Below, one piece after another: positions 4,622 to 63,295 of a stretch of DNA of 64,000 nucleotides. Under the pieces are notes generated by a model. The model was given only the letters and a program-made list of their open reading frames with translations, was not told the DNA's origin and did not search any database. The stretch lies in IMG/VR virus record IMGVR_UViG_3300037193_003384, positions 1 through 64,000 of that record; one strand, 5' to 3'. Positions within the stretch are counted from its first letter, which is position 1; each line of letters begins with the position of its first letter. Position numbers and translations under genes: made by a program. The DNA comes from a virus.

Positions 4622-5641
4622 TCACGCAGCCAGCAGCTGCTCGATGCCGCTGGTGAAGCCCTCATCGGGCATGCGCGAGAAGATGCCGCCCGTGCCCTCC
4701 TGCACCATCGGCGCGCCCTGGGTGAGGGACAGCGAGCGCACGCGGCACCTGCAGTTGTACCCTGCGGGTGGGTAGCAGCGCTGCCAGAAGGGATCGTTCG
4801 CGCGCAGCACGATGCCGTGCATGGCCTGGTGCGTGGGGCGCTGCCGGGGCGGGCCGTCGCCCACGCCGAGCCACTGCCAGAAGGGCCGCAGCTCGAGCAC
4901 CTCGGGCTGGGTCATCTGCCGCGCGCGCCCGCCGTTGTAGGCGCCCACCACGTTGGTGCGGAACACGGTCTCGACGTGGCTCGGGTTCGCGGGCGTCCAC
5001 CCGGCGCTCTCGAAGCGGGCTGCCGCGTGTTTGCCGAACTCAGCCAGGTCCGCGCCCACCGCGATCTGCCGCAGCAGCTCACGCTTGACGGTGCGCACCA
5101 TCTCCTCGCTGGCTGCGTTCGCTACCGTGAAGGCGCGCTTCTTCGCCGCCGCCTCCATCTGATCGAACACGTCGCGGGTGACGGTCTCGCGCTCGAGGAA
5201 CCGCTTGATGGCTTCCGCCAGCGGGCGCGCGGCGAACTGGGTGTCGGTCTGAGCCAGCAGCCGCGGGTGCGCGTGCAGCGCGCCGAAGGCTTCGACCTTC
5301 ACCTGCGCGTCGTTCTCGCCCTCGTACCAGCTGTCCAGGGCGCCCAGCATGGAGCCCTGCAGGAGCTCACGCCGGACGGGGGCCTCGATGCGGCGGGTGC
5401 CGAAGCGATCGGCAGCCCCGTCGATCGCGCTGCGGATCGTGGTGGCGCTGGTCTTGCCGCGCACGGCGCTCACGATGGCGTCGGCGAGCGCGCTGGTGGC
5501 CGCCAGCGTCTCGTCCACGCCGCGCTCCACCATCAGGTCCGGCGTGCCGAAGACCGACGCGGGCTGCGCCGCCAGGCAGATGTGGCGGGCGGCGGCGATC
5601 ACGGCGCTGCGGGGGGAGGCGCCAGGCGGATCGGGCGCCAT
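4622..5641 (-). CDS. Head morphogenesis protein, Mu gpF/SPP1 gp7-like
   Basis: A 339-residue minor head protein of the gpF family, which sits near the portal and is packaged or ejected in several phages. Diagnostic features are the helical middle and the C-terminal block HVETVFRTNVVGAYNGGRAR, FWQWLGVGDGPPRQRPTHQA, then CYPPAGYNCRCRVRSLS, the classic F-domain signature. The start at MAPDPPGASP has a GGAAG ribosome-binding site; the gene overlaps the end of the portal gene by 43 bases in another frame. Confidence 0.85.
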   Translation of the reverse strand: MAPDPPGASPRSAVIAAARHICLAAQPASVFGTPDLMVERGVDETLAATSALADAIVSAVRGKTSATTIRSAIDGAADRFGTRRIEAPVRRELLQGSMLGALDSWYEGENDAQVKVEAFGALHAHPRLLAQTDTQFAARPLAEAIKRFLERETVTRDVFDQMEAAAKKRAFTVANAASEEMVRTVKRELLRQIAVGADLAEFGKHAAARFESAGWTPANPSHVETVFRTNVVGAYNGGRARQMTQPEVLELRPFWQWLGVGDGPPRQRPTHQAMHGIVLRANDPFWQRCYPPAGYNCRCRVRSLSLTQGAPMVQEGTGGIFSRMPDEGFTSGIEQLLAA

Positions 5642-7362
5642 TCGATCTTCCACACGGTCTCGCCGTTCACCACCTCGAAGTCCCGCACGCGTTCGATGCC
5701 GCAGAGCAGGCAGCGGTTGAGGCGCCCGTGTTCGCACCGCTCCACCTGCGCCTCGGTCATCTTCTGCGCCAGCGACGCGATGGCGTCGGGCTCATCCTCA
5801 TCGGGGCCCTGCGGCGCCGGCGGCACCTCACCCTCGGGTAAGGCACCGGCAGGCGGTGTCGCACGAGGAGGCCCCTCATCACCGCCTGCCGGAACGTTGA
5901 ACGCTGGCACGGGCACCTCGGCGAGCTCACCCGGCGTGGGCGCTTTGCCCGTCGGATAGACGATCTCGGGCGCGGGCGGCGGAGCGAGCTGCCCGAAGCC
6001 AGCCGGGCGCTGCACCTTCACGAGGTACGGCTGCCCGTCACGGATCTCCTGCACGCCCAGCTTCTCCTGCGCCTCCTCCACGCTCACGCGCAGCCCCAGG
6101 TCCAGCGCCTTCTGCAGCCGGTTGCCCTCCTCCTCGCGGCTCACGGGGGGCTCGGTGCGGAAGAGGAAGCGCGGCGCGTGGTCGACTTCCTGCGGCCCGA
6201 AGTTCACGGCGATGATCGCATCGGTCACCGCGTCCTCGATCGCCTCCGCCAGGCGCAGCGCGTCGGTGGCGATGATCAGATCCTCCTCGCTGAGATGCGC
6301 ATCGCCAATGCTCGAGCCGAGGCCCGTGCTCACCGCGTCCGTGGTGCCGGTGCTGCCGAGCACCAGCTTGCTCTGCACCTTCTCGGAGTGGCTGATGATG
6401 TCGCCGCTCACCTGCCCCGCGCCGCTGAATGGCTGGATGACGTCCAGGTCCCAGCCCTGCGGCAGCTTCGCGGTGTTGTGGTGGCCGAGCCGCTGGACCG
6501 CTTCATAGGCGGCCTTGCCCGTGTCGTCGTTGAAGGAGACCGCGCTCTCAGGGATGGGCTTCACCACGCGCCACGGGCGCCCGAAGACCTCCTGCAGCAG
6601 GTTGCGTTCACGCACGCCGCAGCGCCCGAAATACGACCAGTAGAGCGTGCGCGTCGCGAGCCCCTCGCGCTCGGGGTAGTCGCAGAAAAGCTGCGGCGTG
6701 TAGATGACGAACTTGTAAGGCACCTCCCCGATCGGGAAGCCCACGTCGCGGAACTCACCCACGTCCTGCCGGGTGTCGATGACGCGCAGATCGCGGTGCC
6801 GCCCGAAGCTGAGCCGGCGCGGGTGGATCCAGTTCAGGCCGATGACGTTCCAGCAGCCGCGGTAGTATTGCCAGTCGAGCTCACTCGCGGCGCGCCCATC
6901 GAAGACCGCCCACGCCAGCTTGGTGAGCGCATCGCGGAAGTGTGGGATGGCCTCGAGCTGCGCGCGCACGAAGGAGGCGTACAGCTCTGCCGTGTCCTGG
7001 TTGATGGCCTCACCCGTCGCGGGCACGACGTCCCAGCCCAGCGCCGCCACGCGGTTGATCCGCTTCTGCAGCACCGCCGAGAGGTGCCCGTCATAGGTGA
7101 GCTGTTCCCTGGCGATGTCCGTGAGCAGCATCATCCGCCCGCGCTCAGCGCTGCGCAGGGCGAAGTCGATGCGCTGCAGGTCGAGTAGCTTCCCGTGGTG
7201 CGGGCGCTCGTTTTCCGCCTGCGGGATCAGATCGGCGAAGAGGTGCTTCCCCAGGACACCTGCCTTCACGGGCGCCAGCGGTGCCGTGGTGGTCGCCTGA
7301 ATCGCTGCCCCTGCCGCAGCGTGCGCCGCGCGCCGGGGCCCCGCCCGCCCTCGCTTTTTCAC
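5599..7362 (-). CDS. Portal protein, Mu gp29-like (DUF935)
   Basis: A portal subunit of about 587 residues forming the dodecameric DNA gate and packaging docking site. It shows the DUF935 pattern: RSAERGRMMLLTDIAREQLT, HLSAVLQKRINRVAALGWDV, ASELDWQY, WIHPRRLSFG, FGRCGVRERNLLQEVFGRPW and a C-terminal IEDAVTDAIIAVNFG helix, then a proline-rich tail with HGRLNRCLLC. I chose the GTG at 7362 (VKKRGRAGPRR), because the in-frame ATG at 7473 overlaps the divergent gene and lacks a ribosome-binding site; the true start is uncertain. Confidence 0.85.
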   Translation of the reverse strand: MKKRGRAGPRRAAHAAAGAAIQATTTAPLAPVKAGVLGKHLFADLIPQAENERPHHGKLLDLQRIDFALRSAERGRMMLLTDIAREQLTYDGHLSAVLQKRINRVAALGWDVVPATGEAINQDTAELYASFVRAQLEAIPHFRDALTKLAWAVFDGRAASELDWQYYRGCWNVIGLNWIHPRRLSFGRHRDLRVIDTRQDVGEFRDVGFPIGEVPYKFVIYTPQLFCDYPEREGLATRTLYWSYFGRCGVRERNLLQEVFGRPWRVVKPIPESAVSFNDDTGKAAYEAVQRLGHHNTAKLPQGWDLDVIQPFSGAGQVSGDIISHSEKVQSKLVLGSTGTTDAVSTGLGSSIGDAHLSEEDLIIATDALRLAEAIEDAVTDAIIAVNFGPQEVDHAPRFLFRTEPPVSREEEGNRLQKALDLGLRVSVEEAQEKLGVQEIRDGQPYLVKVQRPAGFGQLAPPPAPEIVYPTGKAPTPGELAEVPVPAFNVPAGGDEGPPRATPPAGALPEGEVPPAPQGPDEDEPDAIASLAQKMTEAQVERCEHGRLNRCLLCGIERVRDFEVVNGETVWKIEWRPIRLAPPPAAP

Positions 7363-10557: not shown

Positions 10558-11375
10558 TGAACCGACACGAACGGAGGAAGCAGCGCGCGCAGGAACGGAA
10601 GGCGCGCCGCCACGGGGACACGATGGGCGCGGGCTACACGGTGACGAATGAGCCGCCGCGGTGGATGCAAGAGCACCCAGCCTTCATCGAGGGGCAGAGG
10701 GCAGCGAAGAGTGGTGAGCTGCCGCCGCGCTACTACGAGGACATCCAGCAGGCGGCGCGGCTGATCTACGAGTGGTATCAGGCGCAGCCCGAGCCGCCGG
10801 AGCTGCGCTGGGTCGAGGAGCGCGACGACGGCACGTTCATGATCGCGGCGCTGGATGCGCCCCACCTGCTGGCGGACAGCCCGGATGCGTTCCGCCTGCT
10901 GGCGTGGCTCGATGAGCAGACGGGTCGGAAGCTCACCATCTATCAGGCGCGCTGGGCGCTGCGGCTCTGCCGCGCGCTGCCGATGCAGGACGGCAGCTAC
11001 TACGGCGTGGAGACGAAGTTCGAGAGCAAAGCGCTGCAGGCGCTGCGGGCCTTCGCCAATGACGTGAAAAACGAGGGCACCACCGCGCTGGCGATCGCCT
11101 CGCCCTGCGGGCACTGCGGCAAGGAGCTCGATGCCGCGTCGGCCGCGCCCGGGGAACGCCCGGAGCCGGGCTGCTACAGCATCTGCACCGCGTGCGGCGG
11201 GCTCAGCCGGTTCGATGACGAGATGCGCCTGGTGCGCGTGAGCGACGAGGAGCTGGCTGAGATGCCGGAGTACTTCCAAGCCCAGGCGCAGGAGATGAAG
11301 GCGTTGATACTGCAGGGCAAGGCCCGCCATCAGATGGAAGGGCTGCCCGGAAAGAAGACGGTGATCGAGGCATGA
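10557..11375 (+). CDS. Hypothetical protein with zinc-ribbon-like motif, 272 aa
   Basis: The start MNRHERRKQRAQERKARR overlaps the preceding stop (TGATG). The N-terminus is basic, the middle helical (RYYEDIQQAARLIYEWYQ), and two CxxC pairs (CGHC near residue 185 and CTAC near residue 213) suggest one zinc ribbon. The acidic tail contains SDEELAEMPEYFQAQAQEMK. No catalytic motif is seen. Possibly nucleic-acid binding. Confidence 0.62.
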   Translation: MNRHERRKQRAQERKARRHGDTMGAGYTVTNEPPRWMQEHPAFIEGQRAAKSGELPPRYYEDIQQAARLIYEWYQAQPEPPELRWVEERDDGTFMIAALDAPHLLADSPDAFRLLAWLDEQTGRKLTIYQARWALRLCRALPMQDGSYYGVETKFESKALQALRAFANDVKNEGTTALAIASPCGHCGKELDAASAAPGERPEPGCYSICTACGGLSRFDDEMRLVRVSDEELAEMPEYFQAQAQEMKALILQGKARHQMEGLPGKKTVIEA

Positions 11376-15704: not shown

Positions 15705-15934
15705 GATGGCCTCCGGTCTTCAATCGTGGTCTGGTCAGTGACCAACCCGCGGCTGCGGAGCTCGGCTTCGATGGCGCCCTCGGTCTCCCCGCCCATGATC
15801 ACGATGGTGACGCCAGGCAGCCCGATTGCTGGATCGTCGCCAGAGATGCGCATCGGCTGGCCCTGCAACAGCCGCTCGCAGTTGGCGCGGCTGAGCCCAA
15901 GGAGCACGAAGCTGCCAGCGCGCGCTCGGATCAT
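15701..15934 (-). CDS. Hypothetical protein, 77 aa
   Basis: MIRARAGSFVLLGLSRANCE followed by LLQGQPMRISGDDPAIGLPG and TIVIMGGETEGAIEAEL. The GLSRxNxERLLxGxPMRI pattern recurs in small conserved phage proteins of unknown function. Coupled at both ends. Confidence 0.55.
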   Translation of the reverse strand: MIRARAGSFVLLGLSRANCERLLQGQPMRISGDDPAIGLPGVTIVIMGGETEGAIEAELRSRGLVTDQTTIEDRRPS

Positions 15935-16758
15935 CCGATGGTCTCCTCGTCGCGCCAGGCATCGTCATCGGTAGTGGGTGGGGCGCCGGCTGCGGATGGC
16001 ACGCCGAGCGGTCGCGACTCCACCTCGGCTTTACTGGCGTCTTCGTGTGGTGGCGCCGGCGCCCCTGGCCCGGCTTCTGCTGTTGGGTAACCATGCTGAG
16101 CCAGCAGCGAGTCGATGACTTCGCGCGGCCCCTCGAATAGCGCCCAGTTCCCAGGCGGCGGGTCGTGCCCGCTGAGCTCCACGGGGCCCACCGTGGCGAG
16201 GGCGATGGGCGCGTTCCAGTTGCCTGCCCGCTCCACCATGCGCTGCTCGACCTCGCGTGCCTCGGCGGCCAGCGCGCCGCTGATTCGGCGCTGCACGCGC
16301 ACGCGCGGGTCGTTCGGCGAGATGGGCTTGACGCCCGTCAGCGGGCGTCGCTGGGCACTGCGCCGCAGCCACCCGCGCAGCAGCGCCTGCCAGTCCAGCC
16401 GCGGCTCGGGGCGGACGTCGGTGTAGAAGCCGACGAACTTCCGCACCTCCTGCTGCGTGCGCTGCTCATCGAAGCCCAGCGCCTGCGCTACCTCGAGCGT
16501 GTGCTCGGTGGGCTGCAGGTCTTGCGGGCATGGCGTGAGCTCCCCTGCCCGATTGAGCTCGGCCACATGGGCTCGCTGCTGCGGGTCCAGGGTGCACGCC
16601 TCACCGCCCAGCAGCAGGGCCCGCAGCTCCTCGCCATCCCCTTTGCCCACGCAGAGCGTGCCCACGCTCTGGTGCCGGATCCAGATGGTGACGTAGTCGT
16701 GGGCGGGTCCCTGCCGCACCTCTACGCTGCTAATGAATGGTTCTGATCTCGTCGTCAT
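15931..16758 (-). CDS. Hypothetical protein with O-like C-terminal motif, 275 aa
   Basis: An N-terminal beta region (HDYVTIWIRHQSVGTLCVGK), then FVGFYTDVRPEPRLDWQALL followed by RGWLRRSAQR, which resembles the DNA-binding tail seen in phage replication O-type proteins (compare DWQATLRNRLRRE in the gene at 31318). The C-terminal quarter is proline-rich and disordered. It starts a transcription unit after the terminase: GAGG lies before the ATG and a TTACAC box 14 nt upstream. Function unsure. Confidence 0.55.
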   Translation of the reverse strand: MTTRSEPFISSVEVRQGPAHDYVTIWIRHQSVGTLCVGKGDGEELRALLLGGEACTLDPQQRAHVAELNRAGELTPCPQDLQPTEHTLEVAQALGFDEQRTQQEVRKFVGFYTDVRPEPRLDWQALLRGWLRRSAQRRPLTGVKPISPNDPRVRVQRRISGALAAEAREVEQRMVERAGNWNAPIALATVGPVELSGHDPPPGNWALFEGPREVIDSLLAQHGYPTAEAGPGAPAPPHEDASKAEVESRPLGVPSAAGAPPTTDDDAWRDEETIG

Positions 16759-23518: not shown

Positions 23519-23815
23519 TCACGCTGCGCTGGACAGCATCTGCCGGATGATGTGTGGGTGCTTCGCCGCGATCCGCAGCAGGGCCAGGCCGGGGCCTTCG
23601 GGCATGCGCCGGTCCTGTTCCCAGTTCCGCAGCGTGTGCACGCTGATGCCCAGCGCCTCGGCGAACTGCGCCTGGGTGAGGTCCACGAAGCGCCGCAGGG
23701 CGGCCACGTCGCCCGGCTCGAGCTTGCCGGCGATGATGCGTTTGCGCTGGCTCATCCGCAGCGCCCGGGCGAAGTCGGCTGCGGTCCATTCGGGGGGATC
23801 ATGGGGGTCGTTCAT
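23519..23815 (-). CDS. XRE-family HTH antitoxin
   Basis: A 98-residue protein starting MNDPHDPPEWTAADFARALR behind AAAGGA. The HTH is VDLTQAQFAEALGISVHTLR (about 44-63) followed by NWEQDRRMPEGP and LALLRIAAKHP, the NadS/HigA-type antitoxin pattern. It is coupled (ATGA) downstream of a BrnT-like toxin gene. Expected to neutralise the toxin and repress the operon, probably through the palindrome at 24097. Confidence 0.8.
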   Translation of the reverse strand: MNDPHDPPEWTAADFARALRMSQRKRIIAGKLEPGDVAALRRFVDLTQAQFAEALGISVHTLRNWEQDRRMPEGPGLALLRIAAKHPHIIRQMLSSAA

Positions 23816-24102
23816 GGGGGGGTTCCTTTCAGGTGAGCGCGGTAGGCGCGCCGTTGTGCGGGGCTGGCGGGCCACGCGCTGATGATGTGCACCACGTCCT
23901 CAGCCGGCTCGGTCCACACCACCAGCAGCACGCGGCGGCTGCTGGCGCCGATCGCGTGGAAGCGGTATTCGCCTTCACTGTGCGCGTGGTCGGGCAGGAT
24001 GAGCGGGTCGCCAGCGAAAACCTCGCTGGCTTCTTCGAACGTGACGCCCTGGTGCCGTGCCGGGTTGGCGGCTGCTTTTGGCGGGTCCCAGGTGATGCGC
24101 AC
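23812..24102 (-). CDS. brnT: BrnT-family ribonuclease toxin
   Basis: A 96-residue protein, GTG start (VRITWDPPKAAANPARHQGV), then TFEEASEVFAGDPLILPDHA, YRFHAIGASSRRVLLVVW and a C-terminal VVHIISAWPASPAQRRAYRA. This is the BrnT/COG2929 pattern, a RelE-like fold ribonuclease whose active-site region includes the RxxxAxRRE-type C-terminus (here SPAQRRAY). Paired with an XRE antitoxin instead of the classical BrnA, as also seen elsewhere. On a plasmid-like phage it would act as an addiction module. Confidence 0.82.
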   Translation of the reverse strand: MRITWDPPKAAANPARHQGVTFEEASEVFAGDPLILPDHAHSEGEYRFHAIGASSRRVLLVVWTEPAEDVVHIISAWPASPAQRRAYRAHLKGTPP

Positions 24103-29924: not shown

Positions 29925-31349
29925 CTAGGACAGCTCGCGGCTCTCGGGGCCGTCGTAGTCGGTGGGGCCGTAGTCGAAGCCGCCCTGCGCGCCCTCGGTG
30001 AAGCGCACGCACCACGGCTCCCACGTCACGCGCACGCGCCCGGTCCCCGCGTTCCGTCCCTTCGCCAGGATCAGCGCCGCCTCCCCGCGCTCATCGCCCT
30101 CGGCCTCCTCGCGGTGCACGAACAGGACCTTGTCCGCATCCTGCTCGAGCGCGCCCGATCCCCGCAGGTCCATCAACGTGGGCTCACCCGATGCGCGATC
30201 GCTCGGGCGCTTCAGCTGCGATAGCGCCACCACCGTGATGCCCAGCTCGCCAGCGAGGATCTTCAGCGCTCGGCTGATCCGCTCGAGCTGATCGTTGCGG
30301 TTGCCTTCGGTGGAGTCGTCGGCCATCAACTGCACATAGTCCACCACCAGCAGCCCGGGCCGCGCGTGCGGATGGCGCTGGCGCAGGGCCGCGAAGTGTT
30401 TGCGCGCGCGTGACCGCAGCCGCGCCGGCGTGAGCGTGCTCCCGTCGTCGAGATACATCGGGTAGCGCCCGATCTGCGCGGCCGTCGCGATGGCGCGCTC
30501 GTAGTGCTCCATCGAGAGCCGGCGCGTGAGCAGCGGCTTGTAAGGCACGCCGCTCGACCACGAGATGAGCCGCTCACCCAGCTCCTTCCGCTTCATCTCG
30601 AGCGAGAAGAAACACGCGCTCCGTGCGCCCGTGGCGGCCACCGCCGCGGCCATCCCCAGCGCCAGCGCCGTCTTGCCCTTGCCCGGGCGCGCCGCGATGT
30701 ACCAGAGCTCCCCGGGGCAGAAGCCGAGGCTCAGCTCGTTGAGATCCACGAAGCCCGTAGTGAGCCCGCGCGGCTCGCTCGGGCGGCTGGGATCCAGATC
30801 CACTGCGGCGCTGCTCATCACGTCGCAAAGCGGACTGCCCGTGTCGACGTCGGTCCTGCCGCTGGCGTTGATCGCGAACACCACCGATTCGCATCGCTCG
30901 ATGAAGCCCTGCACGTTCGCGCGGGTCTCGACGAAGTTCGCCTGCGTGCTGAGCTCGGCGAGTGCTTTGCCCATGCGCCGCAGCCGCGCCAGGCGGTGCA
31001 CGATCCGCGCGTGCTCGAGCACGTTCGCCACCGACGGCGTCGCGTCCACGATCTGCGAGATGTAGGGCGCGCCACCGATCTGCTGCAGCCGTGCCGTGTC
31101 CCGCAGGTGCGCCGCCAGCGTGACCGCATCGCACTCGCGTCCAGCGTCGGTGAGCTCGAGTATCCCCTCGTACATGGTGCGGTTCGCGCCGCTGTAGAAG
31201 TCGCTGGGCTCGAGCAGGTCGCGCACCTCATCGCGCGCCGTCACGGACAGCATGATCGATGAGAGCACCGCTGCCTCGGCGTCGAGCTCAGCGTGCGGCT
31301 GCGGCTGCTGCCGTCGCTCAGTTGCCAAAGAGCCCCCCGATCGCTGCAT
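29925..31349 (-). CDS. dnaB: DnaB-like replicative helicase
   Basis: A 474-residue hexameric helicase. The N-terminal DnaB domain (residues 20-125) has LDAEAAVLSSIMLS, DFYSGANRTMYEGILEL and GAPYISQIVDATPS. The RecA-like domain has GLTTGFVDLNELSLGFCPGE, Walker A ARPGKGKTA (220-228), FFSLEM, Walker B LLVVDYVQLM (333-342), and the late DKVLFVHREE block. Glycine at Walker A position 1 is replaced by alanine (AARPGKGKT). It overlaps the O-like gene and drives lytic replication. Confidence 0.92.
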   Translation of the reverse strand: MQRSGGSLATERRQQPQPHAELDAEAAVLSSIMLSVTARDEVRDLLEPSDFYSGANRTMYEGILELTDAGRECDAVTLAAHLRDTARLQQIGGAPYISQIVDATPSVANVLEHARIVHRLARLRRMGKALAELSTQANFVETRANVQGFIERCESVVFAINASGRTDVDTGSPLCDVMSSAAVDLDPSRPSEPRGLTTGFVDLNELSLGFCPGELWYIAARPGKGKTALALGMAAAVAATGARSACFFSLEMKRKELGERLISWSSGVPYKPLLTRRLSMEHYERAIATAAQIGRYPMYLDDGSTLTPARLRSRARKHFAALRQRHPHARPGLLVVDYVQLMADDSTEGNRNDQLERISRALKILAGELGITVVALSQLKRPSDRASGEPTLMDLRGSGALEQDADKVLFVHREEAEGDERGEAALILAKGRNAGTGRVRVTWEPWCVRFTEGAQGGFDYGPTDYDGPESRELS

Positions 31350-32301
31350 CGAATCCCGCCGGCGGTGGCACCGCGTCGGGGATCGGTTCGTTCGCTTTGC
31401 GCAGCTGCTGCTGGTAGCGAGCCCAGCTCGCGTCGCGTGGCTTACGCGGTTTGAGCGCGAGCCGCTCGGCTTCGCGCCGCAGTCGGTTGCGCAGCGTGGC
31501 TTGCCAGTCCGCGCCGAGATCCCCGCGGCCGCGCCAGTAGTCGATGAACTCGGCGACGGTTCGATCGAGCAACGCCTGCGTGAATCCGAGCTCCCACGCC
31601 GTCGAAGCGCTGGTCGGGTCGGGTTTCAGGTCTGCGGGGCATTGGCTTCGAGCTCGAGGTTTCGAACGCTTACCGCGTCCCGCCGAGCCTGTCGAGGCGG
31701 TTTGCGCCGGCGGCTCGGAGGTGGGGGGTAAGGGGGGATCCTGATCAGCTAAGCTAGGATCAGCTAGGCTAGGAGTGACAGCGCGTGATGCCGCGTGACC
31801 GCTCGTGAGCCCGCGTGTCGGTTGCGACACGGCGCGTGTCTCCGATGCCACGGGCCGCGATGGTGGCGACACGCCGATCGGCTCGGGCGTGCTGAGCGTG
31901 ACGGCGTCCTCCACTGGTCCCACCTCATCGTCCAGCGGCGTGTCTGAGTCACCCGAGCGGGCCAGATCGCGACGTCGCTTCCGTAACTCCGCCGACCGCA
32001 GCCGGTCACTTTTGATCGCCGTCTGCGCCTCCACGTAGCGGGGCCCGACCAGCCGCGAGCCGCGGTGCTCGACGACGCCGAGCTGCAGCATGCGCTCGAT
32101 GCCCACGCGCACCACGTCCTCGGGCATGCGCGTGATCAGCGCCACGTCGGCAACGGGATCGGTCACGTCGTCCAGCACGCCCGCGCGATCTAGCTTGCGC
32201 CAGAGCAGGCAGAACACCGACTGCCCTTCCCACCCCAGCCGCAGCCATGTCTTCGTGTCGCGGATGTAGATCCGCACGTAGGGCTCGTCTTCGAAGTTCA
32301 T
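31318..32301 (-). CDS. O-like phage replication protein
   Basis: A 327-residue protein. The first 100 residues form a winged-helix-like region (MNFEDEPYVRIYIRDTKTWL, LDRAGVLDDVTDPVADVALI, RMPEDVVRVGIERMLQLGVV). A disordered Ser/Pro-rich linker follows, then a C-terminal block FIDYWRGRGDLGADWQATLR and NRLRREAERLALK, typical of phage O/DnaD-type initiators that load the helicase. It is immediately upstream of the helicase gene. The start at 32301 has a weak ribosome-binding site. Confidence 0.7.
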   Translation of the reverse strand: MNFEDEPYVRIYIRDTKTWLRLGWEGQSVFCLLWRKLDRAGVLDDVTDPVADVALITRMPEDVVRVGIERMLQLGVVEHRGSRLVGPRYVEAQTAIKSDRLRSAELRKRRRDLARSGDSDTPLDDEVGPVEDAVTLSTPEPIGVSPPSRPVASETRAVSQPTRGLTSGHAASRAVTPSLADPSLADQDPPLPPTSEPPAQTASTGSAGRGKRSKPRARSQCPADLKPDPTSASTAWELGFTQALLDRTVAEFIDYWRGRGDLGADWQATLRNRLRREAERLALKPRKPRDASWARYQQQLRKANEPIPDAVPPPAGFDAAIGGLFGN

Positions 32302-32317
32302 CGCGACGAGGCCCCGT

Positions 32318-32497
32318 TCAAAGAGCTGCAGCCTGCGCGGGTTCGCGCGCACTGGGCGGCGCGATGATGTCGATCTTGTACTCACGAATGATGCGCCGCG
32401 CGGCTTCCGCCATGCTCACGCCGTCGCGTGCGCTCAGCGCCTCGAGTATCTGGCGCTCACGCTTGTCGAGGTAGATGGGAAAAACTTTCTTCGCCAC
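32318..32497 (-). CDS. Small ribbon-helix-helix protein, first gene of replication operon
   Basis: A 59-residue protein, GTG start. VAKKVFPIYLDKRERQILEA followed by LSARDGVSMAEAARRIIREY matches the RHH (MetJ/Arc) fold: one beta strand and two helices. Such proteins are dimeric repressors. It borders the 450-base divergent region with candidate operator site D and may control the replication switch. Confidence 0.65.
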   Translation of the reverse strand: MAKKVFPIYLDKRERQILEALSARDGVSMAEAARRIIREYKIDIIAPPSAREPAQAAAL

Positions 32498-38449: not shown

Positions 38450-38689
38450 TCACGCAGGGCGGCGGGTACGCGGGGACCTGGGTACGGCGGCGGACCCAGG
38501 CTTCAGGCCGTCCTTCGCCAGCAGATCGAGCAGGTATTCGCGGATCTGGATCCCGCGCTCGAAGCAGCGGGCCTTCACCTTCTGATGCAGGTCCGCCGGG
38601 ATGTCAGCGTGCAGTCGCTTCTCCCCTACCCCGAATCTGTCCGCGCCCCGAGCCGCCGTGCGGCTTGGCCTTTCTGCCGTGTATGCCAT
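38450..38689 (-). CDS. Ribbon-helix-helix partner of ParA (candidate centromere-binding protein)
   Basis: A 79-residue protein starting [20 protein letters not shown] behind AAAGGA. Residues 24-60 ([20 protein letters not shown] and [16 protein letters not shown]) fit an RHH fold; N- and C-termini are basic and unstructured, as in ParG/ParR-type partition proteins. The gene overlaps the end of parA by 86 bases in another frame. With the short ParA this suggests a type Ib-style partition module. Function inferred from fold and neighbour. Confidence 0.7.
38464..38482 (+). repeat. 19-bp repeat flanking the partition genes, copy 1
   Basis: GGGTACGCGGGGACCTGGG, identical to 39388-39406. This copy lies inside the 3-prime end of the RHH gene, the other upstream of parA, so the pair brackets the locus in the same orientation. 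Confidence 0.55.
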
Positions 38690-39338
38690 GCGATCCTTTC
38701 TCCACTGCGCGCCAGATGCGCTTGATGTCCAGCCCTGCCGACTTGGCAGCGGCCACGGTGAGCACTGACTCGCCCACCTCCATTGAGGCCGGGAATGCAG
38801 CGCGCTGGCGCACGCACCCGGCATAGTGATCGGCCATCTGCAGCAGGCCGCTCTCGGCCTTGCCCGTCGCCAGCGCGCCGGTGATGGCGCGGTTCACCAC
38901 GAACGTGCGGCGCACCGGGCGGCGCCCGAGCTGCTCGCGGATCTGGTCCGCCTGGTCCAGTGACTCGAGCGTCTCGGCCAGCGCCCAGAAGTCGGCGGGC
39001 CCCGGCGCCACGGGTAGCACCACCACGTCGGCCGCGACGGCTGCGCTGAGCGTGATATCGCCGCGGCGCGCCGGGCCGTCCAGCAGCACCACGTCGTAGC
39101 CCCGGGACATGTCCTGGATGCGGGGCAGGGGCAGGGGCTTGGGCGCCTGCACGACGGTGAGCCCGGCGAGCAGCGATGGCTCCCCACGCTTCGCGCTCCA
39201 ATCGAGCGCGGTGCCCTGGGGATCCATGTCGATGATGAGCGTGCGGCGCCCGGCGAGGTGAGCAGCAGCGGCGAAGTTGACGGCCAGCGTCGTCTTCCCG
39301 CTGCCGCCCTTCTGTTGGAGGACGGCGACGGTGAGCAT
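38604..39338 (-). CDS. parA: ParA partition ATPase
   Basis: A 244-residue deviant Walker ATPase that moves plasmid copies on the nucleoid. [20 protein letters not shown] holds KGGSGKTT (10-17), [14 protein letters not shown] holds the A-prime motif (35-47), and [14 protein letters not shown] the Walker B region. It lacks the N-terminal HTH of type Ia ParA proteins. The ATG at 39338 has AAGGAG 10 bases upstream; an in-frame ATG 87 bases earlier lacks one. It is followed by an overlapping RHH gene, and a parS-like palindrome lies 106 bases upstream. Confidence 0.93.
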
Positions 39339-39380
39339 GGGGGGATGCTCCTTTTGGGGGGTAGGGGGGGAGGGCCGCGC

Positions 39381-39414
39381 GGACCTGGGGTACGCGGGGA
39401 CCTGGGGACCCCTA
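39381..39414 (+). repeat. Partition-locus repeat, copy 2, with GGACCTGGGG direct repeats
   Basis: Contains the 19-mer GGGTACGCGGGGACCTGGG (39388-39406) shared with 38464-38482, embedded between GGACCTGGGG copies, just upstream of the parA ribosome-binding site. Candidate operator or centromere for the RHH protein. Confidence 0.5.
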
Positions 39415-39441
39415 TAGCGCAGCACGAATCGTCGCGGTCAA

Positions 39442-48752: not shown

Positions 48753-49076
48753 TTAGTCGAGCGGGCAGAACAGGTCCGGCAGCTCGGCGTCGAACGGGAT
48801 CTCGGGCAGCGCCGGCAGCGGCAGCGCGAAGCCCGGCGCCGTCAGCGCCGGCAGCCCCGGCAGGTCGATCCCAATGTCTACGGTCGGCACCACCACGCTG
48901 AGCGGCAGCGCCGGCAGCGCCGGCAGCGGCAGGCCGAAGCCGGGCGCCGTCAGCGCCGGCAGCCCCGGCAGCGCGACGGCGTAGCTGGGCAGCACCACGC
49001 TGAGCGGCAGCGCCGGCACCGCGAGCCCGGGCAGCGTGAAGCCCAGCACGGGCGGCTCGGGCAGCGAGCAGCTCAT
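48753..49076 (-). CDS. Pro/Leu-rich tandem-repeat protein, 107 aa
   Basis: About 35 percent of residues are Pro or Leu. Two copies of a unit of about 36 residues carry ALPLSVVxP and, 7-9 residues later, LPGLPALTAPGF-LPLPALP; a partial third unit ends the protein (PEIPFDAELPDLFCPLD). It begins MSCSLPEPPV and has a second Cys at the far end. Such PxxP/LP periodicity suggests an extended fibrous or polyproline structure. Located among fibre genes. Confidence 0.55.
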   Translation of the reverse strand: MSCSLPEPPVLGFTLPGLAVPALPLSVVLPSYAVALPGLPALTAPGFGLPLPALPALPLSVVVPTVDIGIDLPGLPALTAPGFALPLPALPEIPFDAELPDLFCPLD

Positions 49077-53452: not shown

Positions 53453-54199
53453 TCACACGGGGGAGACGAAGACGCTGGCGCTGGGCGGCGACAACGGGCC
53501 ACCCAGCAGCTGCACGCCGGCCTCTGCAGCGCGCCCGAGGAACACGTTGCCCTTCAGCAACACGCGCTCCGCCTGCAGCGTGAGCTCGCCCTCCGTCATC
53601 CGCAGGAACGTGGAGCTGCCGACGGAGGCCACGAGCCCGGGCCCGGTGCCGGTCTCCTCGCTCAGCGTGAGAAAGACGCCATCGGCGTGCACCAGGGTGA
53701 TCGAGCTGTTGCCGTCGCTCGGATCGATGATGATCGCGTGCGCCTTCTGCGGCACGCCGGCGCCATCGAAGGAGTGCGGCACATAGAGCGTGGTCACGTT
53801 CGCGCGCTTCGAGCCCGAGGGATCGGCCGTCATCGAGTGCCCGACGAACGCCCCGCCGTAGCCGGCGAAGACGAACTGGCCCTCGCGCGGCGTGGTGCCG
53901 TTGCCGCTGGGGTTGAGCGCTCGGTGCAGCCGCAGGTCGCGGAAGGCGAAAGGCACCAGCCCGTCCTCGGTGCGCACCGTCAGCGCCTCGGCAAACAGAT
54001 CGCCCTCCGGAGGCAGCGGGCGCCCGATGATCCCCAGCGATTGGAAGACCTCCTGCTCGTGCGCCTGCTCGCCCTCGTCCTCATCGGCGCCGTCGAAGCC
54101 GCTGATGCCCGCCACGTTGAACAACGTCGCGCCACTGCGCCCGGCCACGCTCGAGGCGATGACCTTACAGAACTCGACGACGTGGTTCGCGAAGCTCAC
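53453..54199 (-). CDS. Baseplate assembly/spike protein, Mu gp45/gpV-like
   Basis: A 248-residue protein with GTG start (VSFANHVVEFCKVIASSVAG). Residues 95-180 hold an OB-like region (EGQFVFAGYGGAFVGHSMTA) and the C-terminal half has a spike-like beta pattern (AIIIDPSDGNSSITLVHADG, GELTLQAERVLLKGNVFLGR). Matches the membrane-piercing spike class of contractile phages. It is coupled (GTGA) to the replication initiator gene upstream. Confidence 0.68.
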   Translation of the reverse strand: MSFANHVVEFCKVIASSVAGRSGATLFNVAGISGFDGADEDEGEQAHEQEVFQSLGIIGRPLPPEGDLFAEALTVRTEDGLVPFAFRDLRLHRALNPSGNGTTPREGQFVFAGYGGAFVGHSMTADPSGSKRANVTTLYVPHSFDGAGVPQKAHAIIIDPSDGNSSITLVHADGVFLTLSEETGTGPGLVASVGSSTFLRMTEGELTLQAERVLLKGNVFLGRAAEAGVQLLGGPLSPPSASVFVSPV

Positions 54200-54993
54200 G
54201 CGCCGGGGAGTGTATCACTGCCGCGGGCTTCGATCCGGACGACATCGTTCTCCAGCTGCCATCCGCTGAGCACGCGGGTGCGAGTGAGCTCGAGTAGGGC
54301 TCCTTTCACCGCCTGGCGGAAGCGCCGCAAGCTGCGCGTTTGCGTATCCGACAGGCGGCGGATCTCAGCGAGAGAGACTGGCGCGGTCGTGGCGCAGAAA
54401 TAGTGCTGCAGCCAGCGCGCCAGGTTGCCGCGGATCTTCGCGCGCTGGTCCCAATCGAACGTGACATGGCGCTCGTGGAATAGGTGGACGATGTCCTCGG
54501 GCACGGTCACCTCGTAGGTTTCGTCCGCCCTCCACCGCAGCGTCATCAGCCCGCCGATGAACAGCTCGCCCGTCCCCATGTGCTGCACGGTGACGTGCGC
54601 CTTCGCCAGGTCCTCGAGCAGATGGAAGAGCTGATCGTACTGCGCGCCGCCGATCGACTTTCGAGCGCCGCCCGCCAGCTCGATCAGCATGGAGCGCGCG
54701 CGGAAGCTCACGCGGTTGGTCTCAGCGATGCGGCAGCGATACATCAGCCGCTCCCACACGTCCGCGTGCTCCTGCGTGAGCAGGCGCCCCTCGTATTCGA
54801 TGACCACCCCCTTCACGCTGGCGATGATCTGCCGCCGCACGTCGGGCGCGTCACGGCCGTGGCGCGCCGTGAACAGGGCGGACATGACGAAGTCGGTCGG
54901 TATCGCGTGCTTGAGCTCGGGCCAGAGCGGCAGCTGCGGCGGGCGCTGAGCGCGCTTCGCCTCGATGGCGAGCTGATTGATTGTTTTTGCCAT
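54196..54993 (-). CDS. trfA: TrfA-family plasmid replication initiator
   Basis: A 265-residue protein from MAKTINQLAIEAKRAQRPPQ. It follows the TrfA layout: LPLWPELKHAIPTDFVMSAL followed by FTARHG, GVVIEYEGRLLTQEHADVWE, VSFRARSMLIELAGG, GELFIGGLMTLRWRADETYE, RAKIRGNLARWLQHYF and a C-terminal FRQAVKGALLELTRTRVLSG. TrfA proteins bind iterons and load helicase for theta replication of IncP-type plasmids. Iterons begin 26 bases upstream of the ATG. No virion gene would need this protein. Confidence 0.88.
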   Translation of the reverse strand: MAKTINQLAIEAKRAQRPPQLPLWPELKHAIPTDFVMSALFTARHGRDAPDVRRQIIASVKGVVIEYEGRLLTQEHADVWERLMYRCRIAETNRVSFRARSMLIELAGGARKSIGGAQYDQLFHLLEDLAKAHVTVQHMGTGELFIGGLMTLRWRADETYEVTVPEDIVHLFHERHVTFDWDQRAKIRGNLARWLQHYFCATTAPVSLAEIRRLSDTQTRSLRRFRQAVKGALLELTRTRVLSGWQLENDVVRIEARGSDTLPGA

Positions 54994-55018
54994 TTGGCAC
55001 CGGGGGGGCACCGCCGAC

Positions 55019-55134
55019 GATACGGCATTGCTGGTACGTTTGGAGGGCCCGATGCGGCAGGGCTGGTACGCTTCGGGGGGTCGATGCGGCAGGGCTGGTA
55101 CGCTTGGAGGGCCCGATGCGGCAGGGCTGGTACG
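55019..55134 (+). repeat. Four 32-bp iterons, candidate plasmid origin
   Basis: Copies begin at 55019, 55051, 55083 and 55115, exactly 32 bases apart. The core is GATGCGGCAGGGCTGGTACG; copy 1 differs at three core positions, copies 2-4 share the full core. The spacer CTTGGAGGGCCC is shared by copy 3 and nearly by copies 1 and 2. The 32-base period is close to three helical turns. They lie directly upstream of the TrfA-like gene, where Rep binding and autoregulation are expected. Confidence 0.85.
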
Positions 55135-55207
55135 GCCCGCGAACCATGTTGCGTGCGGCCGGCGATCCGATCTAGAGCCTGCCGCGCGGCAGGCGCGCGC
55201 GCGATCG

Positions 55208-55265
55208 ATCTTTAGCACCAGCGCCTTCTGAGGTAGCGGCGAGCCGCTGCGGCTCCGCTAAAGAT
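55208..55265. promoter_or_regulatory. Inverted repeat in the replicon divergent region
   Basis: ATCTTTAGC (55208-55216) and GCTAAAGAT (55257-55265) are perfect 9-bp arms around 40 bases that contain a smaller AGCGG/CCGCT hairpin. It lies between the iterons and the small plus-strand genes. It might be an operator, part of the origin, or a terminator. Confidence 0.5.
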
Positions 55266-55327
55266 GAAAACCAAAGGCGTGGCGGCGAACTGCTTGGATC
55301 CCGCGCGCGATCCCCCCTGGCAACAGC

Positions 55328-55543
55328 ATGCAAACGAACGGCCCCGGCAAATACGATCGCGAATGCACCGAGCTGCGTGAGCGCCTGAAGGCGCGCGGCG
55401 TGGTGCTCATCGTGGATGGCGGCGAGAAGGGTGACGGCTTCGAGTGCCAGCTGGACGCGCACGCGCTGGTGGCGTTCCCCTCGGTGCTGCGGGACATGGC
55501 CGACCAGATCGAGGCGCAATTGCTCGCCAACCCGCCAGCCTAG
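55328..55543 (+). CDS. Small hypothetical protein, 71 aa
   Basis: RECTELRERLKARGVVLIVD and a following HALVAFPSVLRDMADQIEAQ region give a small alpha-beta protein. ATG start without clear ribosome-binding site. It is divergent from the replication initiator. Role unknown; a copy-number or regulatory function is possible. Confidence 0.5.
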   Translation: MQTNGPGKYDRECTELRERLKARGVVLIVDGGEKGDGFECQLDAHALVAFPSVLRDMADQIEAQLLANPPA

Positions 55544-55562
55544 CGCTGCGCCCGGCCGTGAT

Positions 55563-55574
55563 TACACTTCGGCA
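55563..55574 (+). promoter_or_regulatory. TACACT box 6 nt before an ATG (candidate leaderless promoter)
   Basis: TACACT (55563-55568), TCGGCA, then ATG at 55575. No ribosome-binding site. Confidence 0.42.
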
Positions 55575-55766
55575 ATGCAGCGGTACCGGTACCGCCCGTG
55601 CTGCGGCAGCTGCCGCGGGGAACGGCTCACGGAGGTGGATGACACCCGCCCGGCGGGGGAGCACCTGCTGCGGTGCCTGGACTGCGGCGCGCGCTGGGAT
55701 GGCGCCGAGCTCAGCCCCGCCGAGGCCGCGCAGCGCCCCACGCCCGTGCCGGCGGTAGCGCCGTGA
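55575..55766 (+). CDS. Zinc-ribbon-like protein, 63 aa
   Basis: MQRYRYRPCCGSCRGERLTE and LRCLDCGARWDGAELS give four Cys in two pairs. GTGA overlap into the next gene. Function unknown. Confidence 0.52.
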   Translation: MQRYRYRPCCGSCRGERLTEVDDTRPAGEHLLRCLDCGARWDGAELSPAEAAQRPTPVPAVAP

Positions 55767-55933: not shown

Positions 55934-56169
55934 GCGGGCTGGCGGCGATGTCGCTTTTCCCGCCCCGGCGTGAGGGATTTTCCCGCTGGCGCTACATAGG
56001 AGCGGGTACCCTGGCCCGCGGCAGTCTCTGGGGGCCGTCCCGGAATATAACCCCGCCCGGGGCGGCCACCGCTCTCCCCCCCGGCCTGCGCCGCCGTCAG
56101 CGATGACCGCGAGGCGCCTTTGCTGGTGTCTGTGCAGCAGCGCGCCGCTCCGACGCCTCGGGTCATCTG
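55934..56169. other. 236-bp gap between small genes and the tRNA
   Basis: GC-rich, with several short inverted repeats (for example CCCGCCCGGGGCGG near 56055) and GCGGCAGTCT at 56020 that resembles the leader repeats. A 68-codon frame at 55900 has a TACCCT box before its ATG but poor composition. I do not call a gene. Confidence 0.4.
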
Positions 56170-56243
56170 TTGCGCGGGCTGGATTTGAACCAGCGACCTC
56201 CGGGTTATGAGCCCGATGGGGTACCGTGCTCCCCTACCGCGCA
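56170..56243 (-). tRNA. tRNA-Met (CAT), initiator-like
   Basis: A 74-nt cloverleaf. Acceptor TGCGCGG pairs with CCGCGCA; D arm GGGG/CCCC; the anticodon stem has G29-G30-G31 with C39-C40-C41 around CTCATAA; T loop TTCAAAT. The three G-C pairs and a purine-11:pyrimidine-24 pair (G11-C24) are marks of initiator tRNA. Position 1-72 is T-A, weak but paired. The 3-prime CCA is not encoded (A73 is followed by CAG). It lies between the gpP-like gene and the plasmid replicon. Confidence 0.9.
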
Positions 56244-56367: not shown

Positions 56368-57516
56368 TCATAGCACCCAGACGCCCTGCTTCACCATCGT
56401 GATCCGCGAGACGTCACCCTCCCCTGCGCTGCGGCTGAGCTCGGCTTCTTCAAGGTAGTAGTTGCCCAGCGCGCCGCCCAGGTGCGTGGCGACCACATCG
56501 AACACCGTATCGGGTGACCACGGAAACAGGTGGCTGCCCTCGGTGTAGCTGAGCCCGTCCACGGTGACCGTCAGTCGATCGAGACCGCGGTTGCGCGTGG
56601 CCAGCTCACGGCGGGCCCGGGCCTCGGCGAGCGAGCGCGACTTCATCGCCTCGTCGTTGATGATCACCTGCCGGCTGAAGCCGCGATCGATCAGGTCCTG
56701 GTTGAGCTGCTCACCGAACAGCCGCGTCTTCGAGGTGTCCTTGCCCGAGCTCACCCCGAAGACGCCCAGCCGCGTGGGCGCCTGGCTGACGTCGTTGGTG
56801 CGTTCGATGCTGAGCACGTTGTTCATCTGCCCCGAGGGATGGCGGTAGCAGCAGAGCATGCCCATCGCCTCCTGCTGGTCGTCGGGCGCGCCCACCACGA
56901 TGCGCCCGTCGGGCCCATCCCAATGCAGCATGCCGTGCCGGCGCAGGTGCCGATCGACGGCGCTGAAGATGGACTCGGGTGGGTTGACCTTCGCCTGCTC
57001 CTCCTTCAGCGGCTCGAGCGGGCGCGCCGGTGTGGCGCCCTTCGAGGGCTTGCCCGTCATCAGGTCACGCGAGACGTCGACTTGGAAATCGAAGTCACCT
57101 TCGTCCAGCCCGATCCCCGCGTAGCACGCGAGCACGAAGTCTTTGATGCTGGCGTTTTTGAGCTGCACCTTCTGCGGCGCGCTGGAGATGACCGCGTCGC
57201 TCATCTTCGTGCGCACCACGAACGACTGCACCGTGCCCTGCTCAGCGTCGCACGGCGAGCTCAGCGCCTCCACGCGTCCGAGCATGCGCGCCCGGTCATT
57301 CACCACCACGCAAAACACGGCGCCCAGCCCGCAGAGGGTTTGGATGCGCTGCCAGCCGGTCTCATCGCCCAGCTCGAACGCGGCCTCCGCCGGGGCCACG
57401 ATGCTGTTCGTGACGCGGAAGCTGGTCCAGTCTTGGAAGTTGAAGTCGAAGAGCGTCGTGTTCTGCGTCGTGCCGACGGCATTGATCCGCACCACGTCCA
57501 GCGGTGAGCGGCTCAT
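56368..57516 (-). CDS. Baseplate hub protein, Mu gpP (gp44)-like
   Basis: A 382-residue protein of the gp27/gpP hub family. N-terminus SRSPLDVVRINAVGTTQNTT, then RVTNSIVAPAEAAFELGDE, AMLGRVEALSSP-type first barrel, IKDFVLACYAGIGLDEGDFD and a central SIFSAVDRHLRRHGMLHWDG and RIVVGAPDDQQEAMGML, matching gpD/gpP hubs. It sits under the tail tube and anchors the spike. Stop 125 bases from the tRNA. Confidence 0.78.
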   Translation of the reverse strand: MSRSPLDVVRINAVGTTQNTTLFDFNFQDWTSFRVTNSIVAPAEAAFELGDETGWQRIQTLCGLGAVFCVVVNDRARMLGRVEALSSPCDAEQGTVQSFVVRTKMSDAVISSAPQKVQLKNASIKDFVLACYAGIGLDEGDFDFQVDVSRDLMTGKPSKGATPARPLEPLKEEQAKVNPPESIFSAVDRHLRRHGMLHWDGPDGRIVVGAPDDQQEAMGMLCCYRHPSGQMNNVLSIERTNDVSQAPTRLGVFGVSSGKDTSKTRLFGEQLNQDLIDRGFSRQVIINDEAMKSRSLAEARARRELATRNRGLDRLTVTVDGLSYTEGSHLFPWSPDTVFDVVATHLGGALGNYYLEEAELSRSAGEGDVSRITMVKQGVWVL

Positions 57517-61786: not shown

Positions 61787-63295
61787 TCACGCGGCCTTGG
61801 ACGCGTACATGCCGAACTTCGCCAGCGGCTTGATGATCTTCGTCGGCACGAAGATGTTGACCTGGCTCTCGTCGAGCTCATCGATCGTCACCTGCAGCTC
61901 CCCAGCCTGCACCGACTGATCCAGCGCGGGCCCCTGCACCACGCCCGCGCGCACCTGCCCGCGCAGGCGGCTCACGATGAAGGCCTCGACGTCGCGCCGC
62001 TCCACCACGCCCTCCGGCAGCGGATCGCCACCCGCAGGCAGGTCTGGCGAGATGCTGCTGTTCTTGAACTCCTGGGGTACCGCCGTACGTAGGTCCCCAA
62101 ACACGGAGTACATCGCGTCGGTGTCGCTCAGATGATAAGCGCGGTAGTCGGGCGCGCCGCCGCTGGTGGAGTGCGTGGTGATGGGCGCCACCAGGTAAGG
62201 CACGCCCGTGAGGGAATCGATGTCGAGCGGCGTGACGCCGTTGCTGAGCAGGTCCTCGATCTCGGTGGCGCTCAGCTTGTTGGTGACCACGTCGCGGGGC
62301 CCGTAGAGCTCGTGCGTGTTGCCGATGCGGTTGTAGTTGGCGCGCACCGAAGCCCAGCGCAGCGCGTCCCCAGCCTCGGCTGCTGCCAGCTCGCACGGCA
62401 GGTCATCCCAGCTTCGCCCGAGGACGTATTGCATCGCCTCGTTGTTGCGATCGATGGCGCCCGCCTTCGCGTTGCTGGTGGTGCCGGTGACGCCCACCAC
62501 GCCGACCTGCAGCAGCGCGGCAGAGCCCGTCTCGAACGTGTTGATGTGGTTCGCGAGCCGCTCGGCGTTGCTGCTCGAGCTCGTGTCCGCGGCATCGGCG
62601 TTCGAGATGCAGGGGATGATCCGCCGGTATTCGCGCGTCGAGACCGTGGTCAGCGCGGTCGCGAAGGTGGGCTCCGTGGTGCCGCCCGTGCAGTTCGCCG
62701 GGTTGACCGTGACGGCGATCCCGCCGCCGCCCTCGATGATGCCCGCCCAGAGCCGGACGTCGTTTCCCCAGGGCCCCGCCACCTTTGCGGTGAACAGGAT
62801 GGAGCCGCCCGTCGCGTCGCTCGCGGTGACGAACAGATCGGCCGCCTGCTGGTTGATGGTGGCCACGGCGCGCGTGACGAACGTCGTCGCGGCCTCGCCA
62901 TTGAGCCAGGCCACGTCGATCTGCCGCCCATGGATGCGGAAGCGGATCGTGCTGTTCTCGGTGGCGGGCCCGGTGAAGGTCTGCGTGCCCGTGGCTGCAG
63001 CGCCAGCGCTGGCCGTGGGCGCGATCACGTCCAGGCTGCCGAGCGGGTAGCGCTGGAAGAAGCGCTTGGACGCCAGGTGCCCAGGCGTGCCTGCACCGAG
63101 CGCCGTGGCGACGTCATCGGGGCCATAGCACTGGCGCACCTCCGTGTTCGCGGTGATGTTTCCAGCGCTCGACTTCGGCGCCATGATCAGCGCCCGCAGT
63201 GCAGCGAGCCCTGGATTCTGGGCGGGCCCGAGCAGGTTGATCGTGAGATAGAACCCGGGTGTCTTGACGTTACTCGCGACCGCCTTCGCCGGCAT
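61787..63295 (-). CDS. Tail sheath protein
   Basis: A 502-residue contractile sheath subunit. N-terminus NVKTPGFYLTINLLGPAQNP, AALRALIMAPKSS and GPDDVATALGAGTPGHLASK (classic gpL/FI type), a middle domain with beta strands, RRIIPCISNADAADTSSSSN, and a C-terminal block GVVERRDVEAFIVSRLRGQV with INIFVPTKIIKPLAKF-like strands. AAGGAG precedes the ATG. Contraction drives the spike through the cell envelope. Confidence 0.88.
   Translation of the reverse strand: MPAKAVASNVKTPGFYLTINLLGPAQNPGLAALRALIMAPKSSAGNITANTEVRQCYGPDDVATALGAGTPGHLASKRFFQRYPLGSLDVIAPTASAGAAATGTQTFTGPATENSTIRFRIHGRQIDVAWLNGEAATTFVTRAVATINQQAADLFVTASDATGGSILFTAKVAGPWGNDVRLWAGIIEGGGGIAVTVNPANCTGGTTEPTFATALTTVSTREYRRIIPCISNADAADTSSSSNAERLANHINTFETGSAALLQVGVVGVTGTTSNAKAGAIDRNNEAMQYVLGRSWDDLPCELAAAEAGDALRWASVRANYNRIGNTHELYGPRDVVTNKLSATEIEDLLSNGVTPLDIDSLTGVPYLVAPITTHSTSGGAPDYRAYHLSDTDAMYSVFGDLRTAVPQEFKNSSISPDLPAGGDPLPEGVVERRDVEAFIVSRLRGQVRAGVVQGPALDQSVQAGELQVTIDELDESQVNIFVPTKIIKPLAKFGMYASKAA

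Follow-up and report, generated by a model that had tools for sequence, protein, structure and literature searches.

A TrfA-family initiator gene and its probable iteron origin in a circular tailed-phage genome

The repeat array and the initiator gene

The window, that is, the whole 64-kb stretch of viral DNA analysed here, contains an initiator gene and a short array of direct repeats that are enclosed by two phage genes, as follows.

53453 to 54199, minus strand: phage gene directly downstream of rep, a marker of the locus (60-80% identity in three relatives)
54196 to 54993, minus strand: TrfA-family replication initiator gene (rep, trfA; 265 aa), recognized by Pfam, tblastn and fold
54974 to 54996: AT-rich stretch TGATTGATTGTTTTTGCCATTTG, extreme in A+T and covering the rep start codon; candidate DNA unwinding element
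55018 to 55049: putative iteron 1, the most diverged copy and the closest to rep, with three changes in the 20-base core
55050 to 55081: putative iteron 2, core exact
55082 to 55113: putative iteron 3, core exact
55114 to 55134: putative iteron 4, a partial unit, core exact
56368 to 57516, minus strand: baseplate gpP-like gene upstream of the rep module (weak Pfam match below the cutoff, Mu GpP-like)

The 20-base core of the repeat, GATGCGGCAGGGCTGGTACG, is found exactly at 55051, 55083 and 55115 and with three changes at 55019, and all four cores are on the plus strand at a spacing of 32 bp. A pattern search thereby confirmed the positions given by an earlier sequence-only reading, whose description of the copies as "four exact" iterons is right for the spacing but not for the sequence, as only three of the cores are exact. 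When up to three mismatches were allowed, 4 matches to the core were found in the window, compared with 0.03 expected, and none of the shuffled sequences reached 4. Tandem Repeats Finder delineated a head-to-tail array at 55018-55134 with a period of 32, 3.7 copies and 85% matches, indicating that the repeat is the entire 32-bp unit and extends beyond the 20-base core. A CRISPR reading was rejected because the stretches separating the cores are repeated too. The spacing corresponds to approximately three helical turns, and the near end of the array is located 26 bp upstream of the rep ATG (54993, minus strand), as had been noted before. Direct repeats in helical phase thus lie beside an initiator gene, the arrangement expected of an iteron origin. 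No further copy of the repeat was found in the whole 66,144-base record. A strict array detector, requiring four or more occurrences of a 15-base word at a spacing of 15 to 60 bp, returned the 55018-55134 array as its sole hit in the 64-kb window, and five shuffled windows gave none. Neither strict nor looser settings revealed a second array in the window; a different iteron array elsewhere, which the sequence-only reading had named as one observation that would speak against it, was therefore not found there.

The product of the gene at 54196-54993 matches the Pfam family TrfA (PF07042) with an E value of 1.3e-9 and a score of 38 bits, above the curated cutoff of 22, and the closest plasmid TrfA, from a Burkholderia plasmid, is approximately 32% identical to it (tblastn; E, 9e-23). 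A structure model of moderate confidence (pLDDT 61.9) best resembles domains 2-3 of RctB (E, 3e-6), followed with weaker E values by RepE-type and Rep WH1 chains, and on the basis of this model the protein is predicted to have the winged-helix fold of initiators. A longer rep frame starting at 55218 and running through the repeats was rejected, since a period of 32 is not divisible by three; it is also disfavoured by the TrfA proteins of the relatives, which begin at the equivalent MA.

The stretch at 54974-54996 has the highest A+T content of all 23-mers of the 64-kb window (16/23), tied only with the 23-mer one base to its left. Its composition and position make it a candidate for the unwinding element that the sequence-only reading had proposed to look for near the array; as it overlaps the rep start, it may instead be conserved for translation. 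The other two signals that it had proposed to check did not appear. With up to one mismatch from TTWTNCACA, an E. coli-type consensus that may not be that of the host, the sequence near the array contains no DnaA box; DnaA boxes, which are present in RK2 oriV, are not counted here as defining every iteron origin. GC skew did not clearly point to an origin around 55 kb, and gene orientation confounds the skew. Between 54700 and 55700, neither a sigma-70-like promoter nor an intrinsic terminator was found, and a hairpin at 55195-55290 is no more stable than shuffled sequences (z, -0.41). The search for RNA families close to the array yielded a tRNA alone. This tRNA-Met (CAT; 56169-56243) adjoins the gpP-like gene, as does a tRNA-Met at 11157-11231 in each of two related phages described below, L006 and L008; none was found at the equivalent place in a third, L007.

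Arrays beside trfA in related phages and in plasmids

Relatives were retrieved using the gpP-like gene and the gene downstream of rep as queries; a viral-contig search with a single TrfA sequence confirmed no relative. Three phage contigs of 63-67 kb (L006, L007 and L008) share the locus, with trfA located between the same two tail genes. Their flanking proteins are 60-80% identical to those of the window (66-79% for the gpP-like gene), and their TrfA proteins are 26-37% identical to that of the window. All three carry their own repeat array of a different sequence just upstream of trfA, at the following positions.

L006, 12287 to 12369: array upstream of trfA
L007, 11849 to 12036: array upstream of trfA
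L008, 14100 to 14192: array upstream of trfA

Across the three arrays, four copies of the GGTGGCCCAGAAGCCCCC type, five copies of GGTGGCTCAGAAGCCCA together with two variants, and four copies of the ATTAGCGCAGGGTCCCCCC type were identified, with a spacing of mostly 21-22 bp, to which L007 adds 33-bp and longer steps. At one setting, the strict detector found a single array in the window and a single one in each of the three relatives' loci, upstream of trfA in every case. It found none in the loci fetched from four relatives whose records have no trfA match (L009, L018, L019 and L020); in two of these, L009 and L020, the flanking tail genes lie close to one another. This joint occurrence of array and initiator among the relatives provides the strongest support for reading the repeats as initiator sites. 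Counting against it, no array was found within the 7.1 kb fetched from L024, a more distant virus contig (42,735 bp) that encodes a distant TrfA at 4884-5660. The AT-rich stretches of L008 (13996-14015) and the window (54974-54996) are alike (TTGATTTTTTC and TTGATTGTTTTTG), and each precedes repeats with a GCAGGG core; the GCAGGG-core arrays of the two phages have opposite orientations relative to trfA.

Eleven TrfA plasmid loci were compared at looser settings (three copies of 14 bases). All eleven have a repeat array within approximately 2.5 kb of the trfA start, either upstream or downstream, at settings that are less specific, because they also picked one extra intragenic array in each of L006, L007 and L008. 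The usual spacing of TrfA arrays is 22 bp, and the spacings in the sampled plasmids are mostly 22, 33 or 44 bp. The 32-bp spacing of the window is compatible with the helical phasing of the plasmid arrays, and its uniformity is unusual. In the IncP-1 plasmid, the array consists of ACACTTGAGGGGC spaced at 22-23 bp, and a part of the window unit, ACGCTTGGAGGGCC, resembles this repeat (shuffle P value of 0.02, uncorrected). This resemblance in sequence is only suggestive; among the five repeat types compared with the IncP-1 repeat, low P values were obtained for that of the window and the second L007 type and not for the other three.

The IncP-1 (RK2-type) TrfA/oriV system has the initiator family (Pfam TrfA) in common with the window phage. 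RK2 oriV combines a direct-repeat array with an AT-rich element, both of which are also present in the window, and its TrfA binds both the iterons and, once the AT-rich region has melted, one of the two strands of that region (PMC4081077). The window differs from IncP-1 in its spacing (32 bp versus 22-23 bp), in that no DnaA box was found, in the location of its array directly upstream of rep and in that the genome is that of a phage. In the Burkholderia TrfA plasmids, the repeats are located 160-470 bp upstream of trfA, and ParA and ParB genes are nearby in some; unlike the window, these plasmid stretches have no annotated phage structural genes, and the phage TrfA is on a separate branch. 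A maximum-likelihood tree separated the phage TrfA proteins from the eleven plasmid proteins with a branch support of 98/97, the L008 and L024 branches being long, and this separation argues against a recent capture from any sampled plasmid. Searches of 50,697 phage records by tblastn with TrfA from the window, L007, the Burkholderia plasmid and the IncP-1 plasmid gave zero matches, and no example of a TrfA-replicating phage was seen among the papers listed by literature searches limited to open-licence papers.

The phage genome and its partition cassette

The record of 66,144 bases (approximately 66 kb) has an exact 141-bp terminal repeat and is thus circular as assembled; the corresponding repeat in the L008 record is 87 bp long, and the L006 and L007 records have none. 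Major head, portal, terminase and DnaB-like helicase genes were matched in the record, in addition to a Mu F-like head gene, and the presence of capsid, portal, terminase and tail genes identifies the element as a tailed-phage genome and not an ordinary plasmid. YqaJ, RuvC-like, amidase and BrnT-type toxin genes are also carried. The BrnT-family gene (E, 3.6e-18) and an overlapping gene for an HTH protein, at 23519-24102, are likely a toxin-antitoxin pair, and proteins with DnaT-like domains, possible helicase-loading partners, are encoded at 15931-16758 and 31318-32385. A 108-bp tandem repeat at 48805-49022 lies within a proline- and leucine-rich coding region. Among phage records, the best 10 matches listed for the terminase are all below 30% identity, and a 502-residue protein encoded at 61787-63295 has zero matches. 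Scans of genome contigs for a host, using the neighbouring gene and a phage TrfA alignment, confirmed no relatives.

No match to a tyrosine integrase, resolvase or rve-type integrase (PF00589, PF00239 and PF00665) was found in the window phage, and no lysogeny repressor was identified. Since the trfA-less relatives likewise gave no integrase match, its absence is not diagnostic of a plasmid lifestyle. The following features have the layout of a partition cassette.

38450 to 38689, minus strand: small ribbon-helix-helix (RHH)-like protein, candidate centromere-binding partner, overlapping the parA end
38465 to 38482, plus strand: candidate centromere repeat GGTACGCGGGGACCTGGG, exact copy, downstream of the par cassette
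38604 to 39425, minus strand: ParA-like partition ATPase (Pfam AAA_31 and CbiA)
39389 to 39406, plus strand: candidate centromere repeat GGTACGCGGGGACCTGGG, exact copy, upstream of the par cassette

A ParA homologue with 47-51% identity is present in all three trfA-bearing relatives, and none was detected in the records of the trfA-less relatives. In all four trfA-bearing phages, a gene for a small RHH-like protein overlaps or abuts the parA end. The small protein of the window has a weak Pfam match to ParD (E, 0.014), and its candidate ribbon-helix-helix fold is our own reading. The GGTACGCGGGGACCTGGG copies flanking the cassette may function as centromere repeats.

Origin function and lifestyle

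Taken together, we propose, with a probability of roughly 80%, that TrfA binds the repeats, starts replication and represses its own gene and that the element is a phage-plasmid with a TrfA branch separate from that of the plasmids. Considered separately, the 55018-55134 array is very probably a TrfA-bound origin array, and the window phage is likely a phage-plasmid. Among the observations that speak against the proposal, no E. coli-type DnaA box was detected near the array, and its uniform spacing of 32 bp departs from the 22 bp usual for TrfA. The steps that we infer are binding, melting, autoregulation, copy control and maintenance in a plasmid state. The array and the adjacent AT-rich stretch would constitute the replication origin of the circular phage genome. 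By analogy with RK2 oriV, TrfA produced from 54196-54993 would bind the phased 32-bp units and, once bound, would open the AT-rich stretch; the opened origin would then load the replicative helicase for theta replication, possibly with the products of the phage's DnaB-like gene and the two genes for DnaT-like-domain proteins. Bound TrfA would also repress rep, as expected from the location of the array immediately upstream of the rep start codon; with no sigma-70-like promoter found in 54700-55700, it is this position that points to autoregulation. Iteron titration or pairing would limit the copy number, and the TrfA origin and the ParA/RHH-like cassette would most likely let the phage persist as a plasmid of low copy number between rounds of lytic growth. 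The sequence-only reading of the repeats as Rep iterons at an origin is thus supported by the TrfA family assignment, the RctB/RepE-like model and the relatives' arrays, with the autoregulation it proposed being deduced from position only; its term "plasmid" origin is incomplete, as the element is a circular phage genome and most likely a phage-plasmid.

The location of the array immediately upstream of the rep start would also suit an operator at which TrfA or another regulator represses rep, with the working origin elsewhere, just as RK2 oriV lies apart from trfA; several TrfA plasmids moreover have their array downstream of trfA, up to approximately 2.5 kb from its start. However, no other array is present in the window, and its most AT-rich 23-mer adjoins the 55018-55134 array, and we regard a role as an operator only as unlikely. 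Centromeres are often repeat arrays, and the repeats could be read as a partition centromere rather than as initiator sites. The par cassette, however, is approximately 16 kb distant and has flanking repeats of its own, and all near relatives have an array beside trfA and all sampled plasmids have one in its vicinity, which makes this reading highly improbable. Chance or a recent, meaningless tandem duplication, which would leave identical cores such as the three observed here, is more improbable still, given that only 0.03 core matches are expected and that relatives with diverged TrfA proteins carry different arrays at the same place.

A more serious alternative concerns the lifestyle, as the TrfA origin could serve the lytic replication of a virulent phage that has no plasmid stage and employs its ParA-like protein otherwise. 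Consistent with this, a lysogeny repressor was not identified, integrases are absent from the trfA-less relatives too, and the phage encodes a DnaB-like helicase. On the other hand, ParA, the small RHH-like partner and the flanking repeats form a partition layout, the ParA was detected in no members other than those with TrfA at this locus, and the genome carries a BrnT-type toxin gene together with that of an HTH partner. We give this alternative perhaps a minor share of the probability and favour the phage-plasmid, whose plasmid state we infer from rep, par and circularity, as in integrase-less mycobacteriophages (PMC7157519). The genome combines structural and packaging genes with initiator and partition genes and is circular with no match to an integration enzyme. 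Like P1 and the integrase-less RepA mycobacteriophages (PMC7157519), it is a phage genome in which a plasmid-type initiator and a partition cassette are present and an integrase is missing; it differs from them in that its initiator is TrfA.

In summary, the site is of a known kind in an uncommon setting. It is conceivable, at somewhat short of even odds, that these phages represent an undescribed phage-plasmid group with its own old TrfA branch, in which initiator and iterons turn over far faster than the surrounding tail genes, possibly since members with the same iterons are incompatible in one host. If our reading is right, TrfA, the initiator family of broad-host-range IncP plasmids, would join the replication systems used by phages, and the related genomes would offer, at a single locus, four natural initiator-iteron pairs with which co-evolution and incompatibility could be tested directly.
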